Shown here: piece by piece, positions 18,092 through 24,748 of the stretch
How positions within the stretch are numbered: position 1 is the stretch's first letter
Layout of the letters: each line of letters begins with the position of its first letter
Origin: Linderina pennispora
Lineage: Eukaryota; Kickxellomycota; Kickxellomycetes; Kickxellales; Kickxellaceae
DNA: 34,915 bases
Assembly (NCBI RefSeq): GCF_002104995.1
Contig: NW_024468351.1
Span: 1-34,915 of the forward strand
Reading direction: 5' to 3'
Notes under the pieces: generated by a model
Databases searched by the model: none
What the model saw: only the letters and a program-made list of their open reading frames with translations
Told to the model about the DNA's origin: nothing
Program-made: the position numbers and the translations under genes

Positions 18092-18833
18092 TATATTCAA
18101 ACAGTGACAGAGCACTGATCACTACTGAAGTTGCCTCTATTAAACAAGACTGCCATTTGCAAAGTCGACCCATCAACACCTGGTTTCTACTCCCCTCTCT
18201 TTACTGTCACCAAAAAGAATGGCAAATGCTGCCTAGTCCTTGATTTGAGACTCTTCGACAATCATATTACCCCCTGTCATTTAAAGATGGAGGGCATTAA
18301 GATAATATTTGACATAATGCAATAGAAGGATTAGATGATAAGTATCAACCTCTCCAATGCCTTTCTGCATATGCCTGTGGCTGCAGACTCCTGCTATTTG
18401 CTATGCTTTACTTAGGAAGGCACTTACTATGAGTTTCAATGCCTTCCTTTTGGTCTATCTCTTTCACTGCTTATTTTCACCAAGGTCATAGCCACCATAC
18501 TATGCCATCTGCACAGCAAGGGAATTTAAGTAACAGCATATATGGATGACCTCCTGATCATGGCCAAGACCAAACAGCAGGCCTCAGTAACATACTAACA
18601 GAGTTCTTCACATATGGCAAGACTTGGGATTCCTTATCAACCCAGACAAATCCACAATGCACCCACAACAAGTGATTGAGTCCTGGCTTTATGATCTGCT
18701 CATGGACAATGTCCATATATCTACCCTCAGCCAAATGCTGTGACCTATACTACAGTGCACAGAAACTCATCAATATAAGACATACCATACCTTGCCAGCT
18801 AGCATCATTTATTGGCAAAGCCTGTGCAACTAT
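18092..18833 (+). pseudogene. Reverse transcriptase remnant (DIRS type)
   Basis: From 18131 the frame reads a clear RT fingers/palm (TPGFYSPLFTVTKKNGK, VLDLRLFDNH, HLKMEGIKIIF). After a frame change and stops it continues with NLSNAFLHMPVAADS, YEFQCLPFGLSLS and the catalytic YMDD at 18539-18550. The RNase H connection follows (YLPSAKCCDLYYSAQKL, LASFIGKACAT). In-frame TAG and TAA codons interrupt it. It stops abruptly at 18833, where the 4.2-kb element begins. Confidence 0.85.
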
Positions 18834-19230
18834 GGAGATCAGTCAGAATTGGTTAACTATTTAATAATTATTAATATTTATATTATTTTCTTGTTCAGAT
18901 GCCAAATATGGTGCTTCTCTGAAACCCCCTTCGGCATCCTGAAAAATTTCAGTTGATACACAATTAATATGCTTCTACTGAGATAGAGGCTGCGTCCTGA
19001 GAAATCAACTGAAATTTTTCAGGATGCCGAAGGGGGTTTCGGAGAAGCACCATATTTGGCATCTTTGTTTATTTGTTAATCTAGTTGCTAGAATCTTTTT
19101 GGCCACTACTAAACATTCTGTATTTTAAAATATTTATCTACTGCTAGTAATTGATTTCTTATTTGTTAATTGGTTATTCTGCTAATAGATATTTAGTTTC
19201 TTTAACTATTTATATTTGTGAATGGCCTCC
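18834..19230 (+). repeat. Left 397-bp terminal direct repeat
   Basis: Starts GGAGATCAGTCAG and ends GAATGGCCTCC. It contains the hairpin at 18898-19063. Its last nine bases are the first three codons (Met-Ala-Ser) of ORF1, so the repeat must also hold the ORF1 promoter and leader. Outside the repeat on the left stands the retroelement RT sequence ending ACTAT. Confidence 0.9.
18898..19063. repeat. Long hairpin, 60-bp arms, left copy
   Basis: Arm 18898-18957 is the reverse complement of 19004-19063 with one mismatch; the loop is 46 bp. The arms begin GATGCCAAATATGGTGCTTC and are GC-richer than the sequence around them. Confidence 0.95.
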
Positions 19231-20865
19231 TTGGGAGTACATCTTAACTCCCTTTTGGGACTTCAGTTGAAGAATAGAGATAATATGCCTGATATATCTG
19301 ATGCAAGATATACTAGTAATGGCATTGAACAACAAGGATTTGTTCAGCAATCTGATATCTTTATGGATTCATGTGTTGTGGAGATACCTGAATCATATGC
19401 TCTTATAGATCAGATTAACAATATTACTCCATTTGTTAGATTGCATAGAGTTTTTGGTGATGGATACAGATTTAAGTACATGAAGTGTATGACAAGTGCA
19501 AGAAATGGTAAAGTCTCTGTTTACAAAGTATCTGCTCCAAATGTTGCAATAGCTGATCCTGCACTAACTGATATCTTTCTTAGGATGCATCAAGAACATG
19601 TATTTCTTCTGAACTATGATATTACAATGGATTGTCTAAACATATCTTCTAGGGCTGTGATTAAGGAATTTCTTCTTGATAATGAAATCAGTAGCAATGA
19701 TATTCTTGATGATGAAGATAAAGTTGGTGCAAACTGTATTAGCTGGTTTACTGAAGAAGATGAAATAAAAAATAGGAACAAGTTGTTTAATAAATTTGTT
19801 CAACTTCTAGAAAGTGGTGAGGTTCGCAATCAACTTACTTCTAAGCTATCAGAGCTAGTGATGCCAACTTCTCAGCAATTTGGTGAAACACTTGTTGCTT
19901 GTAGGAATGAAGGATTAATGAGGCTTGAGCTTACTGTTCACTCTCCTGAGTTGAAAGAAGTAGAATGGAACACAAACTTAATTGCTAGTACACTGGAGTT
20001 TCTTAGTAATTGTAGGACATTTGCAACATCTTATGAAAAGCAATGGATGGCACTAGTTGATCAGATTCATACCAAACATATGTTGTGTATTTACTTCCAT
20101 AAAGAACATACTCTTGGTTACTGCCATTGGTTCAATAGGACAACTATGAAGAAACAAGGAATAGCTAAAAAGTTGAAAGAGAATGAAGATATGATGACTG
20201 TTGTTTCCAATCTTACATTTAATGGACACCCAACTGTTCTTCTTACATATGCTACCAGTAGTGGTCCTCTTGAATCTGAAGTTGTTTTAAGAAGAGATAA
20301 CACAAACATCACTATTGTTCCAAGTCAGAAGAACTCTTTCTGGCCTGTTGCTTCAAGAGAAAGACAACAACACACATTTGCTGAGATGGGACTTGTAAAC
20401 TATCGTGGAATGCATATTGATTGGCTAACTGCTCAACAAGCAAGAGAGAAAGTTTGTCTCTCAACTCTCTCAAGTATTAGTGAGGATACTGATGACCTAG
20501 GAATAGATGATCTTATTGCTGATATCACCAACATTGAACTTGATGATCTAGAACCCACATACATAAGAGAAAATACTGATCTTAGGCCAGCTAGATACAA
20601 AGTTGCTTATAACATACTTCATGCTGGAGATGAGTTCCTAGTTAGTCATTATTTCTTATATACTTTTAGAGGGTTACCATTCTACTATCTAGATATCTAT
20701 ATGATTCACAATGAAGTAGTTAGCAATACTCACACTCATATCAAAATACAAGCAAGTAGTCCATTTGGAGAATATATTGCTTCTGTTATTGGCCAACCAA
20801 ATCAAGAAGTGGTGCTTAAAGTAACTAGAATTCATAATCGTATTATCCATATTGAGAGGATCTAG
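19222..20865 (+). CDS. ORF1 of the 4.2-kb element, unrecognised 547-aa protein
   Basis: The start codon at 19222 lies in the last 9 bp of the left terminal repeat. I cannot assign a family with confidence. Visible features are YDITMD (residues 132-137), FNKFVQLLESGEVR (189-202), MRLELTVHS (233-241), HMLCIYFHKEH (286-296), an acidic patch at 418-450 and a globular C-terminus. There is no signal peptide, membrane segment or zinc-finger cysteine pattern. The order D-x-T-x-D, then a YNK/FNK-type lysine motif, then R-x-E resembles rolling-circle replication initiators of the Rep_trans type, from memory. This is a weak inference, and no HUH pair is evident. It is intact, with AT-rich codon use unlike the neighbouring genes. 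Its stop is 2 bp from the stop of the opposing small ORF. As the partner of a DDE transposase it is the natural candidate for a DNA-binding or accessory protein. Confidence 0.8.
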   Translation: MASLGVHLNSLLGLQLKNRDNMPDISDARYTSNGIEQQGFVQQSDIFMDSCVVEIPESYALIDQINNITPFVRLHRVFGDGYRFKYMKCMTSARNGKVSVYKVSAPNVAIADPALTDIFLRMHQEHVFLLNYDITMDCLNISSRAVIKEFLLDNEISSNDILDDEDKVGANCISWFTEEDEIKNRNKLFNKFVQLLESGEVRNQLTSKLSELVMPTSQQFGETLVACRNEGLMRLELTVHSPELKEVEWNTNLIASTLEFLSNCRTFATSYEKQWMALVDQIHTKHMLCIYFHKEHTLGYCHWFNRTTMKKQGIAKKLKENEDMMTVVSNLTFNGHPTVLLTYATSSGPLESEVVLRRDNTNITIVPSQKNSFWPVASRERQQHTFAEMGLVNYRGMHIDWLTAQQAREKVCLSTLSSISEDTDDLGIDDLIADITNIELDDLEPTYIRENTDLRPARYKVAYNILHAGDEFLVSHYFLYTFRGLPFYYLDIYMIHNEVVSNTHTHIKIQASSPFGEYIASVIGQPNQEVVLKVTRIHNRIIHIERI

Positions 20866-20867
20866 TT

Positions 20868-21110
20868 TTAAAATGGGCAGTTAGCAACCATTACTTCCAT
20901 ATCTGCACAACTGTAGTTGCATACATCAAACACATGCTTAATAGTAACACCCTTATCTTCTGAAACACTCTCAATCCATGCTCTGATATATACTGACAAT
21001 TTCCTACTCATACTGAAATTCTTAGTTAGCAGTTGTGCAAGCTTTTCTCTCTTGCTCATCAAGGTCAGCAAGTTTTGTAGTGAAGAAAGTGTAGAATGGG
21101 CCCATTGCAA
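20868..21110 (-). CDS. Small antisense ORF of the 4.2-kb element, 80 aa, unrecognised
   Basis: It occupies almost the whole gap between ORF1 and the transposase gene, tail-to-tail with ORF1 (2 bp between stops) and head-to-head with the transposase (35 bp between starts). The start at 21110 gives MQWAHSTLSSLQNLL; an internal Met (MSKREKLAQLL) could be the true start, giving 63 residues. The protein is basic and helical-looking in the middle (KREKLAQLLTKNFSMSRKL) with three cysteines near the end. No domain is recognised. Support comes from position and from the lack of any other explanation for the gap. A chance ORF of this length in AT-rich sequence is possible. Confidence 0.5.
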   Translation of the reverse strand: MQWAHSTLSSLQNLLTLMSKREKLAQLLTKNFSMSRKLSVYIRAWIESVSEDKGVTIKHVFDVCNYSCADMEVMVANCPF

Positions 21111-21145
21111 TAAATGACAACTTTTAACTTTATGAGTGCCTCACA

Positions 21146-22375
21146 ATGATGAATCATCAATTACAAGAACTCAGAGAAAGGGAGTTTCATAAGCTGTACA
21201 CAAACAAATGGAAGTTTCTGAATGATGACTGGGTAATTTTAAAGCCCACAAAATATCACAGAAGTGAAGTTCGTGAAGTAAGAGAAATTAAGCATATAAA
21301 AGATACACTTCTTAAACATCTAGGGATGATTCCTGTTTTCTTCTTTCTGAATGTTTTGTTTGGTTGCACTCATTATCCATGTCCTTATAGAAGTGTAGAG
21401 AAAGGATTGCTCATCATATACCAACTTGTTGAAGGATTGTCTATCAATGAAATGGAAAGATTCATTCCAAGAAGCAGCTATCAAGCTATTCACAATATGT
21501 TCTATATCTCTGAAATGAAAGATTTGAATAAGAAGCTAACATACTATCTACAAACAATGTTTTCAACTCCAGAACTACGAGTCTTTGCAGCAAAGATACA
21601 GAATCCTCAAGGGTTTAAACATGTAACACTAATGTTAGATGGCCATGACTCAAGAGCACTACACAATGGAGCATACAAACCAGATCTCTATTCATTCAAA
21701 TTGAAAAAATCAGGATATCGCACACAAGTATGCATTGATGTGAATGGAATGGTTCTACTTGTTTCACCAACTGAAGACTGTAGAGATCACCCAGACTCAA
21801 GAATGATTAAGAACATGGGGCTGCTGAAGAACATATCACCTATTGATTGCATTGTGCTTGATGGTGGCTATCCACAAAGTATTTTGGAAGAGATGACTGA
21901 GGAAGAAGAGCAGGATACTTTTGGACTGCACAACTTTTGTTTACCAGTAAGAAAGCAGAGAGGAACAAGTTTATCAGAAACAGAAGCTGAATATAATTCC
22001 CATCTTGGATCATTCCGTTCAATGGTAGAAAATACATTTGGAGAATTAGGCAATACATTCAAAAGGCTGTCAAATAGGGAGATTGTTAGAGTAAAGAATA
22101 GGGATGTTTACAATGTGCAAATGAAGTTATGCTGCTTGCTCTATAATATGAAGAAGTTACTAGCAAACAGTGATGTACATATTGATCATCATCACTCACT
22201 CTGGGTTATGAGTAACTTTGATTACCCTGATACACATGATAGGTCAATACAAGTGGAACCAATACATATTTTGCCCCAAAAAGCAGAGTTAGAAGCATCT
22301 ATTGTTGAAATTCAAAATCGATTCCTTCAATCTAAAATTGATGACACATATGATTGCTTGGTGCATATTGATTAA
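21146..22375 (+). CDS. DDE transposase, DDE_Tnp_4 (IS5/Harbinger-like) type
   Basis: 409 residues, intact. A helix-turn-helix-like segment (GLSINEMERFIPRSSYQAI, 97-115) precedes an RNase H-fold catalytic core. D165 lies in LMLDGHDSR, D239 in CIVLDGGYP and E295 in SMVENTFGELGNTFKRL, spaced 74 and 55 residues apart. The YSFKLKKSGYRTQVCIDVNG and SETEAEYNSHLGSFRSMVE blocks match the general plan of DDE_Tnp_4 transposases, in which D-GY and R-x-x-V/I-E are typical (family knowledge). It should cut and join the ends of the 4.2-kb element. Codons MM begin at 21146 and 21149. The final 15 codons lie inside the first unit of a tandem repeat. There are no visible introns. Confidence 0.85.
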   Translation: MMNHQLQELREREFHKLYTNKWKFLNDDWVILKPTKYHRSEVREVREIKHIKDTLLKHLGMIPVFFFLNVLFGCTHYPCPYRSVEKGLLIIYQLVEGLSINEMERFIPRSSYQAIHNMFYISEMKDLNKKLTYYLQTMFSTPELRVFAAKIQNPQGFKHVTLMLDGHDSRALHNGAYKPDLYSFKLKKSGYRTQVCIDVNGMVLLVSPTEDCRDHPDSRMIKNMGLLKNISPIDCIVLDGGYPQSILEEMTEEEEQDTFGLHNFCLPVRKQRGTSLSETEAEYNSHLGSFRSMVENTFGELGNTFKRLSNREIVRVKNRDVYNVQMKLCCLLYNMKKLLANSDVHIDHHHSLWVMSNFDYPDTHDRSIQVEPIHILPQKAELEASIVEIQNRFLQSKIDDTYDCLVHID

Positions 22376-22669
22376 TTACAGATGGAGTACTAATGACTTG
22401 ATGATTTGAATTTGATGTTTTAAAATGGTGCAGTTTGAATATTTCTAAAATTGATTGTATATATGATTGCTTGGTGCATATCTATTTATTACAGATGGGG
22501 TTCTAACAACTTGATGAATTTATTATGATTTTTTAAAATGGCATAGTTTGATTATTTCTAAAATTGATGACATATATGATTGCTTGGTATTAGAAAAATA
22601 GTTATAAATAGGATGATAACGACTTGATGACTAGAACATGATGTTTTAAAATGGAAGCATTTGATTAAG
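22331..22669 (+). repeat. Three 113-bp tandem repeats at the 3' end of the transposase gene
   Basis: Units begin with TCTAAAATTGAT at 22331, 22444 and 22557. They share CATATATGATTGCTTGGTGC, the ACTTGATGA motif and ATGTTTTAAAATGG. Unit 1 encodes the end of the transposase; units 2 and 3 are non-coding and more diverged. They lie between the gene and the right terminal repeat, where transposase-binding sites would be expected. Confidence 0.85.
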
Positions 22670-22682
22670 TATAATTCTATAA

Positions 22683-23079
22683 GGAGATCAGTCGGAATTG
22701 GTTAACTATTTAATAATTATTAATATTTTTATTATTTTCTTGTTCAGATGCCAAATATGGTGCTTCTCCGAAACCCCCTTCGGCATCCTGAAAAATTTCA
22801 GTTGATACACAATTAATATGCTTCTACTGAGATAGAGGCTGCGTCCTGAGAAATCAACTGAAATTTTTCAGGATGCCGAAGGGGGTTTCGGAGAAGCACC
22901 ATATTTGGCATCTTTGTTTATTTGTTAATCTAGTTGCTAGAATCTTTTTGGCCACTACTAAACATTCTGTATTTTAAAATATTTATCTATTGCTAGTAAT
23001 TGATTTCTTATTTGTTAATTGGTTATTCTGATAATAGTTATTTAGTTTCTTTAAATTTTTATATTTGTGAATGGCCTCC
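22683..23079 (+). repeat. Right 397-bp terminal direct repeat
   Basis: Same length and orientation as the left repeat, with 8 substitutions and no indels. It ends GAATGGCCTCC and is followed by TATGCC of the interrupted retroelement. Confidence 0.9.
22747..22912. repeat. Long hairpin, 60-bp arms, right copy
   Basis: Arms 22747-22806 and 22853-22912 are perfect reverse complements around a 46-bp loop. The loop is identical to that of the left copy. Confidence 0.95.
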
Positions 23080-23171
23080 TATGCCTGCTATTCTACCCTC
23101 ACAACTCTTCACTCAGGCACTCCTTCATACCAAGAATGCAGCCCTAGGCCACCACTCCTGGGATACAACTA
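23080..23171 (+). pseudogene. RNase H-side fragment of the DIRS-type element
   Basis: Reads PAILPSQLFTQALLHTKN then AALGHHSWDTT, continuing directly from the GKACATM end at 18833 when the 4.2-kb element is taken out. This wording follows the FIGKA motif in DIRS-type elements (family knowledge). It is cut off at 23171 by the second TIR element. Confidence 0.75.
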
Positions 23172-24748
23172 CACTGAGCGGCAAAATTGAGTCACAAAAA
23201 TCAAAATCATCGAAAATCTTAAATAATTTCTCAGAACGACGTTCATTGAATGTGATAAAATTAAATAATGGTGTATGTCATTCACTAATCTATTTCATGT
23301 AGTTATGTGCTTATCACTCTTGAAGTAAGCGAGAAATTGACTTTTTAAAAATATAAATTTTGACTCAATTTTGTGAGCAAAATTCGTCGATTTTTTTCTC
23401 ACTAACTAGCATAGACACCATAGGTTTTTTTGACTGCAGCGATACGCACAGGCATCAAGTTCACTACCCATGAATATACGGTTTCATTTACTTACATATA
23501 TATAATTTCCTAAGCCAACGCAATGTAGGTGCCAATCATGATGAATTTTGGCCTTTATCTGATCATACTTATAGTGAAGCCCTATATGTGAGTAGCGCAT
23601 CATATCATAGGAACTACACTGATCATCATCCAGTAGAAACAGTATTCATATCTAGCCAACTGGTAGCCTAATTTGCTATTTATGTGATAATGAATACTTT
23701 GGACATAATCTTTGCACTCTCCTACTGCTTATCATAGGTATGTAATCAAGGTATGTTTTATATCATCATATACACACTGGTCAGTATGTCATATCCCCCT
23801 CTACTAAGGAAGCAATAGCTATAGCTGTATAGAGATACACTACTCTAAACTCAAAATCTACTTTTTCTATTGTTCATAGATTCTGGTTTTCTTCTTATTT
23901 TTGGCAGAATAGAGTATATTCATTCAGATATTTCATTCTCAGTGTCACCTGTGGGGCATGTGCTTTGTATAGCAAGTACATTTGATTTGATCTATTGTGT
24001 ATTTGATCAGAAGGAGCTGCTTAAAGAAGGATCAAGAAAGTTGTAAAATTTGAGATTCAGATTAAATGGCTTATCATTAGGCACAGAGGTTACATATGGA
24101 TATCTCATAGCATAGAGCAGATAGCCACAGTACTACCCTCTCTACCTATCTATATATTGTTACTATAAAAAATCATATCATAGAATTACATTGCTTCAAT
24201 AGAGAGCATAAGTGTAGTTGTGCATAATTTATAGTTGATTACTCCCTCAGTGAACTAGCTATCAAACTCATTTCTTGTCATCGTTGAGTACTAATCACGC
24301 GAATATCAACTATGCAATCAACATCCATAAGAGTGAAGGGAGTGCTGAAGCGTTGATCATTTCCTTCATAATTTTTCTTCGCATATTGAATACATGATAG
24401 TACTACGTATAGTTGAGCAACGATATGAATGAGATATTTATATGGAAGAGCGAGTGAAGAAGAGTTATAGGTAGTGATTTCACATTATTCGAATATTGAT
24501 ATGGTATAGAAATAACACTATGAAGTCAAAGTGAGTCAAATTTTTGCCTCTCCAATTTTTCTAGTTTTTTACTATTGCTTCGATATCATGCGAAGTACAA
24601 TAGTTAGAGAATATGCAACTACATACTTTTATACTATATCAAGCCCCATCGAACATATATCGAATGGAAGTATCTACGTTATCTGATGACGAAGATATAG
24701 CATCAAAAAGTTGAAAAATTTTTTGTGACTCAATTTTGCCGCTCAGTG
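23172..24748. mobile_element. 1.58-kb TIR element, copy 2
   Basis: Same ends and same orientation as copy 1 and nearly the same length (1577 against 1578 bp), with scattered substitutions. The 81-codon frame of copy 1 is closed here by a TAA near 24044, so that frame is unlikely to be a functional gene. TA stands on both sides, but the left flank is retroelement sequence and the right flank is another TIR-element fragment, so the duplication is only weak evidence of a simple insertion. Confidence 0.8.

Follow-up and report, generated by a model that had tools for sequence, protein, structure and literature searches.

The window analysed here, a stretch of 34,915 nucleotides at the start of contig NW_024468351.1 of the fungus Linderina pennispora (RefSeq assembly GCF_002104995.1), contains at positions 18834-23079 a DDE transposon with a composite-like build: two direct 397-bp repeats (R) flank a 3452-bp internal region (INT). 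This R-INT-R unit inserts with a 3-bp target-site duplication, and R also inserts alone with such duplications. Within an insertion, the left and right R are for the most part nearly identical and vary in concert, with exceptions, and for this reason a stage with a single repeat probably occurs in each transposition cycle. The explanation that we favour, at about an even chance of being correct, is that the cycle of the composite-like element includes a molecule carrying one R, in the simplest case a circle made of R and INT, and that R is copied upon insertion.

Structure and insertion site of the element

The left R (18834-19230) and the right R (22683-23079) are both on the forward strand, with INT between them (19231-22682, forward strand), and are identical at 389/397 positions, leaving 8 differences. 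R starts with GGAGATCAGTC and ends with GAATGGCCTCC, and each R has imperfect inverted tips of its own; in the left R these occupy 18834-18844 and 19220-19230 (forward strand), the latter having the reverse complement GGAGGCCATTC. The tips of the whole element, GGAGATCAGTC and GGAGGCCATTC, likewise form an imperfect inverted pair. TAT is present on both outer sides (18831-18833 and 23080-23082). The two repeats with their 8 differences, the inverted tips of the whole element, and the outer TAT had been described in the initial annotation of this DNA and were re-found in the sequence. The inner flanks, TATAA/GGAG and CCTCC/TTGGG (slash at the repeat boundary), have TATAA and TTGGG as the ends of INT; these are mismatched and hold no duplication, which bears out the earlier view that the repeats did not arrive as separate insertions.

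Removal of the element and one TAT in silico rejoins two reading-frame pieces that are retroelement-like by eye, and the joined flanks match three other genomic places over 238 bp, at equal length and 89% identity. The one of these paralogues that was read aligns without gaps and holds a single TAT at the insertion point, and the window insertion is therefore a clean one with a 3-bp duplication. The insertion-free copies of the flanks are located at C195:11529-11766, C158:7637-7874, and C146:177975-178212. By eye, the flanks themselves (18594-18833 and 23083-23242) resemble an old retroelement with a reverse-transcriptase-like frame.

Copies, solo repeats, and tandem forms in the genome

The source genome (26.2 Mb in 222 contigs) contains at least 67 matches to the element, including at least four other full-length copies of 4248 bp that are 94-97% identical, both counts being drawn from the best 12 of 140 candidates scored; the arrangement is therefore no product of chance. 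Three related families have the R-INT-R build, along with solo repeats and tandem forms. Family A, that of the window element, includes at least 20 complete transposase genes at 96% or above, the window's among them (best 40 of 117 candidates). Family B, which was examined for its layout and for two pairs of R (C212 and C201), has a transposase gene that is ~87% identical to that of family A, an INT that is 89% identical for most of its length, and R that are mostly 396-397 bp long. The transposase of family C has ~75% amino-acid identity, and its R measures 462 bp and includes a 54-nt hairpin.

Full-length repeats were read with their flanks in family A (49 repeats) and family C (36, one of them cut by the edge of its stretch). 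A matching 3-bp duplication surrounds 9 of the 14 complete family-A elements whose outer flanks could both be read (C6 TAT, C146 outer ATT, C146 inner TCT, C194 TTT, C178 AGT, C35 TAT, C2 AGT, C157 ATG, and C158 ACT) and 9 of the 10 delimited family-C elements. These counts omit C165, which lies at a contig end, the tandem at C1:3296763, and two of the 12 family-C pairs that are undelimited on one side (C146:164376 and C157:152095). A family-A element nested within another is bounded by the duplication TCT, and one family-C copy, likewise nested, carries 462-bp repeats that are identical to each other and lies within a matching duplication. Together with the other full-length copies and the empty site, these matched flanks establish the element as a single mobile unit, as had been proposed, and the matched flanks at many sites and the empty site rule out an assembly artefact. 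Solo R with their own matching 3-bp duplications, which the initial annotation had suggested looking for, are common as well (9/10 full-length solos in family A and 6/8 in family C). R that were rearranged or incomplete (C112:888766, C1:3295081, and C79:228621 among them) were left out of the solo and pair counts, as was C1:3001534 out of the family-C solos, since it was taken to be the right end of a decayed copy. Tandem forms occur at C157:165802, C1:3296763, and C133, the last being recognised by a 3678-bp spacing at which each of the two genes recurs. At C196:6607-7003, an R-INT-R with unmatched flanks is followed directly by INT from position 627, the R and INT sequence in between being gone; this arrangement looks like a deletion beside the element.

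Copies with the transposase region and without the repeats, which would speak against a unit of this kind, were looked for and not found. The termini of INT in families A and C have 86 matches; 83 of these adjoin R by an automatic rule, two adjoin a mutated R tip, and the remaining one is the internal 113-bp repeat rather than a terminus; this figure is biased because many of the loci were picked for containing R. In loci chosen by their transposase (L022-L029), all eight family-A and family-B termini adjoin R. Thus no INT terminus without R was seen in the loci of families A to C that were read, where a deletion that took R and over ~12 bp of INT as well would escape detection.

Paired repeats of one insertion vary together

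In eight family-A elements with matched flanks, the left and right R differ at 8 (window element), 0, 0, 0, 0, 0, 1, and 2 positions, 11 in total. The R of the two family-A subtypes differ at 17 of ~397 positions, equally so for left-left, right-right, and left-right comparisons. Across the eight pairs, 26 columns are concerted, that is, have two alleles, each of which is found at both ends of some element, and no column has a fixed difference between left and right. Re-pairings as close as the real one are rare, both overall (2 of 40,320) and when shuffled within subtype (2 of 720); element C158, with its interrupted right R, was left out of this permutation test. Of the columns that tell the subtypes apart, seven do so at both ends, two on the left only, and one on the right only; these last three are differences of the window pair. 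When 14 family-A pairs are taken, whether or not their flanks match, R differ on average at 1.1 positions within an element and at 11 between elements. The window element, C146 outer, and C35 share between their two ends changes that are absent from every other R read. The pattern recurs in family C, in which the first eight matched pairs have 6 differences in total, 48 concerted columns, and no fixed columns, with 25 of 20,000 shuffles as close as the real pairing. In family B, the two R of C212 (TAT flanks) are identical, with 0 differences.

Substitutions in INT provide a clock for these pairs. The private INT substitutions of family A predict 11.5 R-pair differences if the repeats were identical at insertion and then untouched, and 11 are seen. 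Because the observed divergence agrees with this prediction, later homogenisation is not needed to explain the likeness of the repeats, and frequent conversion after insertion is disfavoured since it would leave fewer R differences than predicted. The clock test thus lends support, short of proof, to R pairs that would have been identical at insertion and would not have undergone frequent conversion later.

A hairpin in each repeat

Each R also harbours a feature that the initial annotation had missed, an almost perfect inverted repeat whose 61-nt arms (98-100% complementary) enclose a 46-nt loop. Its arms lie on the forward strand at 18897-18957 and 19004-19064 in the left R (98% complementary) and at 22746-22806 and 22853-22913 in the right R (100%). 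Folded as single-stranded DNA, the left R reaches -83.9 kcal/mol, compared with a mean of -27.6 for shuffled sequences. The arms are perfectly complementary in 32/49 family-A repeats (58 positions) and 25/36 family-C repeats (54 positions). The centre of R is present in both orientations, 38 and 11 of the 49 in family A and 14 and 22 of the 36 in family C. This orientation is the same at both ends in 9/9 matched and 2/5 unmatched family-A elements and in 6/9 matched family-C elements. In the family-C elements C112 and C135, the two ends are identical in sequence and have oppositely oriented centres, and the R centre must therefore invert readily. Given the proportions in family C (6/9) and in unmatched family-A elements (2/5), agreement in centre orientation was dropped as main evidence for a single template.

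A probable one-repeat stage in the transposition cycle

In the cycle that we favour, the two R of an element would recombine with each other and release a circle of one R plus INT, and the transposase would then join both tips of the lone R to a target cut with a 3-bp stagger. R would be copied during insertion, as in a Shapiro-type cointegrate, yielding an R-INT-R with a duplication on the outside only and with repeats identical at birth. Recombination between R at a later time would give rise to solo R and tandem arrays. A one-R circle would constitute a complete gene unit because R supplies the start codon of the first gene, ORF1. Such a cycle accounts both for the duplication being confined to the outer sides and for the two R being copies of one template, except in family-C element C196 and family-B element C201. 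The more specific proposal, that this is a eukaryotic DDE transposon multiplying by true replicative (cointegrate) transposition, with the one-R circle inserting via the two tips of its R and R being copied in the process, is put forward tentatively and would have to be judged somewhat doubtful at present. If it is true, DNA transposition would itself generate the LTR-like (long terminal repeat-like) ends, with no reverse transcription involved, and the element would represent a eukaryotic counterpart of the translocatable units of bacterial IS26, with the transposase gene in the cargo rather than in the repeat. Of two guesses made in the initial annotation, the one in which the element moves as a form with its cargo bracketed by the terminal unit is the better fit, and the capture of LTR-like ends the poorer one.

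Several observations weigh against the one-repeat cycle. No circle was observed in the data, which consist of an assembled genome. The rule of co-variation has exceptions, since the R are unlike in two elements whose flanks match. In the family-C element at C196:7508-11662 (matched ATA flanks), the R differ at 38 columns and belong to two subtypes, and the ends of INT also come from two subtypes; with this element added, family C has 48 concerted, 25 discordant-only, and no fixed columns, and 1 of 20,000 shuffles is as close as the real pairing. In the family-B element at C201:712344-717654 (matched AAT flanks), the R are 397 and 405 bp long and 47 columns apart, centre orientation uncorrected. 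The outer flanks do not match in 5/14 family-A elements (C1, C135, C212, C147, and C196) and 1/10 family-C elements; those of family A could have arisen when elements recombined with one another or through replicative events within a molecule. Centre orientation differs between the ends of 3/9 matched family-C elements. The clock test, in turn, leans heavily on the window element, which supplies 8/11 of the R differences and 40/50 of the private INT changes. Its private coding changes comprise 13 nonsynonymous and 15 synonymous ones, against a neutral expectation of 2.7:1, and part of them must therefore predate the insertion. In addition, at 3/8 of the R differences in the window element, one end carries the allele of the other subtype.

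The strongest rival is a cut-and-paste composite, in which R-INT-R is moved by its outermost tips and conversion in an active copy or donor site keeps the R alike. Cut-and-paste is the simplest chemistry for a PIF/Harbinger-like transposase, both R and R-INT-R insert with 3-bp duplications, and the unlike R within the matched flanks of C196 and C201 are as this explanation would have them. Without conversion, however, it predicts separate lineages of left and right R, and families A and C have no fixed left/right columns. Conversion that continued after insertion would bring R divergence below the INT rate, whereas 11 differences were seen for 11.5 expected, with the reservations about the window element given above. 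Cut-and-paste also predicts INT without R as a footprint of excision, of which none was seen. We consider this explanation possible, though on balance unlikely.

An alternative that keeps the circle dispenses with its transposition. Here, R would be a small non-autonomous transposon, and a circle of R plus INT would recombine homologously into a resident solo R, so that the resulting R-INT-R inherits the duplication of the solo R; a route of this kind has also been drawn for KolobokP elements of animals in the text of Kojima and Bao 2022 (PMC9587614). Solo R flanked by matching duplications are common in both family A and family C, which would fit, as would the tandem forms at C157:165802 and C133 and the unlike R of C196 and C201; these two exceptions sit better with this route, or with conversion ahead of a cut-and-paste move, than with the one-repeat cycle. 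Recombination into resident repeats should, however, frequently produce hybrid pairs with respect to subtype or orientation, and orientation agrees in all nine matched family-A elements. The changes that the window element, C146 outer, and C35 carry at both ends, unique among the R read, also argue against it, and we regard this route as improbable. Reverse transcription of the LTR type, with the polymerase supplied in trans by a retroelement, would explain the LTR-element architecture and the start codon at the inner margin of the left repeat, but is very improbable, as no polymerase gene was recognised in the element, the repeats of all three families have GG..CC ends and inverted tips like those of transposons, neither a purine tract before the right R nor a shared primer-site-like sequence at the INT starts (TTGGGAG, TTAAGAG, and TTCCAAAG) was seen by eye, and the transposase is under purifying selection.

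Relation to known mobile elements

LTR retrotransposons have two terminal direct repeats that are identical at birth, as well as solo repeats, and the Linderina element appears to share both properties; it differs in having a DNA transposase instead of a reverse transcriptase and in its ends. Pairs of LTR-like repeats with solo copies thus need not be retroelements, which calls for caution in annotation. The DDE_Tnp_4 transposase domain, the 3-bp duplication, and the presence of two genes are shared with PIF/Harbinger, ISL2EU, and bacterial IS5 elements. Elements of these groups end in short inverted repeats, whereas in Linderina the short inverted tips are each part of a long direct repeat. 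The duplication of 3 bp fits the 0, 2, or 3 bp given for the PIF-Harbinger-ISL2EU-Spy superfamily in the consulted portion of PMC12730594. No PIF/Harbinger, ISL2EU, or IS5 element with long direct terminal repeats appeared among the open-access papers listed in literature searches.

In IS26, the transposase gene sits within the repeated unit. Pseudo-compound transposons and translocatable units of IS26, for which a one-copy circle and replicative insertion have been proposed, resemble the Linderina element, going by the relevant sections of PMC7986276, in that a unit with inverted tips of its own is present in two direct copies, one on each side of the cargo, and in the presence of tandem arrays. 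They differ in being bacterial and having an 8-bp duplication, while the Linderina transposase lies in the cargo. The same sections name IS903, of the bacterial IS5 family, among elements possibly using alternative transposition pathways (PMC7986276).

The initial annotation called the architecture unusual, and so it is, albeit not without precedent, since KolobokP has the same layout. As described in the main text of Kojima and Bao 2022 (PMC9587614), KolobokP elements are composite-like, encode a Kolobok transposase and a His-Me finger nuclease (the gene for which some families apparently lack), and have been recorded from seven animal phyla; one family includes 46 copies minus one repeat (Table 3). 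They are presented there as unlike any other DNA transposon, with the molecular pathway left open, and the main text does not contain the words homogenisation, replicative, or cointegrate, nor did we notice in it a test of repeat identity within insertions. The two systems share long terminal direct repeats that have inverted tips of their own. The Linderina element differs in its DDE_Tnp_4 transposase, its orphan second protein without a recognised domain, its fungal host, and the long hairpin that each of its repeats contains, and no footprint left by the excision of a repeat was seen in it. Kolobok transposases have a C/DxxH motif between the second D and the E, and a CCHC zinc finger. In a comparison based on the published description, the Linderina transposase, whose best Pfam family is DDE_Tnp_4, has no C/DxxH motif in the interval from D239 to E295, and a CxxC pair is absent from its entire length. 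As regards the His-Me finger nuclease, the element has just two open reading frames (ORFs) of at least 110 amino acids, and ORF1 has no Pfam match of any kind. Among the open-access papers listed, judged by title and abstract (subscription papers and Repbase being outside this scope), KolobokP is the one case of such elements described, and the listed publications on Linderina or Kickxellomycotina show nothing on an R-INT-R layout.

The Linderina element is a second lineage with the KolobokP layout, in another transposase class and another kingdom, and long direct ends would on this evidence seem to be a solution that can be reached repeatedly rather than an oddity. The layout itself has already been published; what is new here is evidence on how the terminal repeats stay alike. 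The matched-pair test, in which repeats prove alike inside one insertion and unlike from one insertion to another, makes the upkeep of such ends testable, and with it the question of whether a eukaryotic DDE transposase moves replicatively via a one-repeat circle.

Genes of the element

INT contains two large genes. ORF1 (19222-20865, forward strand; 547 amino acids) encodes an orphan protein, and its ATG at 19222 lies within the last 9 bp of the left R, inside the right tip of that repeat. The transposase gene (21146-22375, forward strand) encodes 409 amino acids and matches PF13359 (DDE_Tnp_4) in Pfam with an E value of 7.3e-14, in agreement with the class assigned to it initially. Similarity to the NCBIfam IS5 model is weak, the match falling under the family cut-off. 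D165, D168, D234, D239, and E295 are invariant in 25 aligned transposases, including that of the window, and are candidate catalytic residues. Relatives of the transposase are found in Coemansia, Mortierellomycota, Mucorales, and unnamed sequences; many of them have a chromodomain (PF00385), which is absent from the window transposase.

Ratios of nonsynonymous to synonymous substitution rates (dN/dS) between copies and families are 0.03-0.14 for the transposase (eight comparisons) and 0.18-0.33 for ORF1 (seven comparisons, omitting copy C2, which has no ORF1 frame of 300 or more amino acids). By this measure, both genes are under purifying selection, between copies as well as between families. 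ORF1 relatives are recorded in Linderina pennispora at 94, 89, and 50% identity, and a search for relatives found no homologues outside Linderina. In elements of the PIF-Harbinger-ISL2EU-Spy superfamily, the second gene encodes a Myb/SANT DNA-binding protein; ORF1 and its relatives have no match in Pfam, and structure models are of low confidence. That ORF1 serves as an accessory for DNA binding or replication is a guess. No ORF of at least 110 amino acids was found in the window element beyond these two, neither of which matches a reverse transcriptase, and no polymerase gene was recognised. The initial annotation had listed three ORFs. The third, a 63-amino-acid frame on the minus strand (20868-21059), is interrupted by stops in all 14 of the other family-A copies that cover it and was rejected.

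A 113-bp tandem repeat of about three copies (22331-22669, forward strand) overlaps and trails the end of the transposase gene. Its three units are kept in family A and partly in family B, and are possibly transposase or regulatory sites. Just to the right of the element, a 16-nt inverted repeat consists of CAAAATTGAGTCACAA and its near-complement at 23182-23197 and 23358-23373, 160 nt apart.

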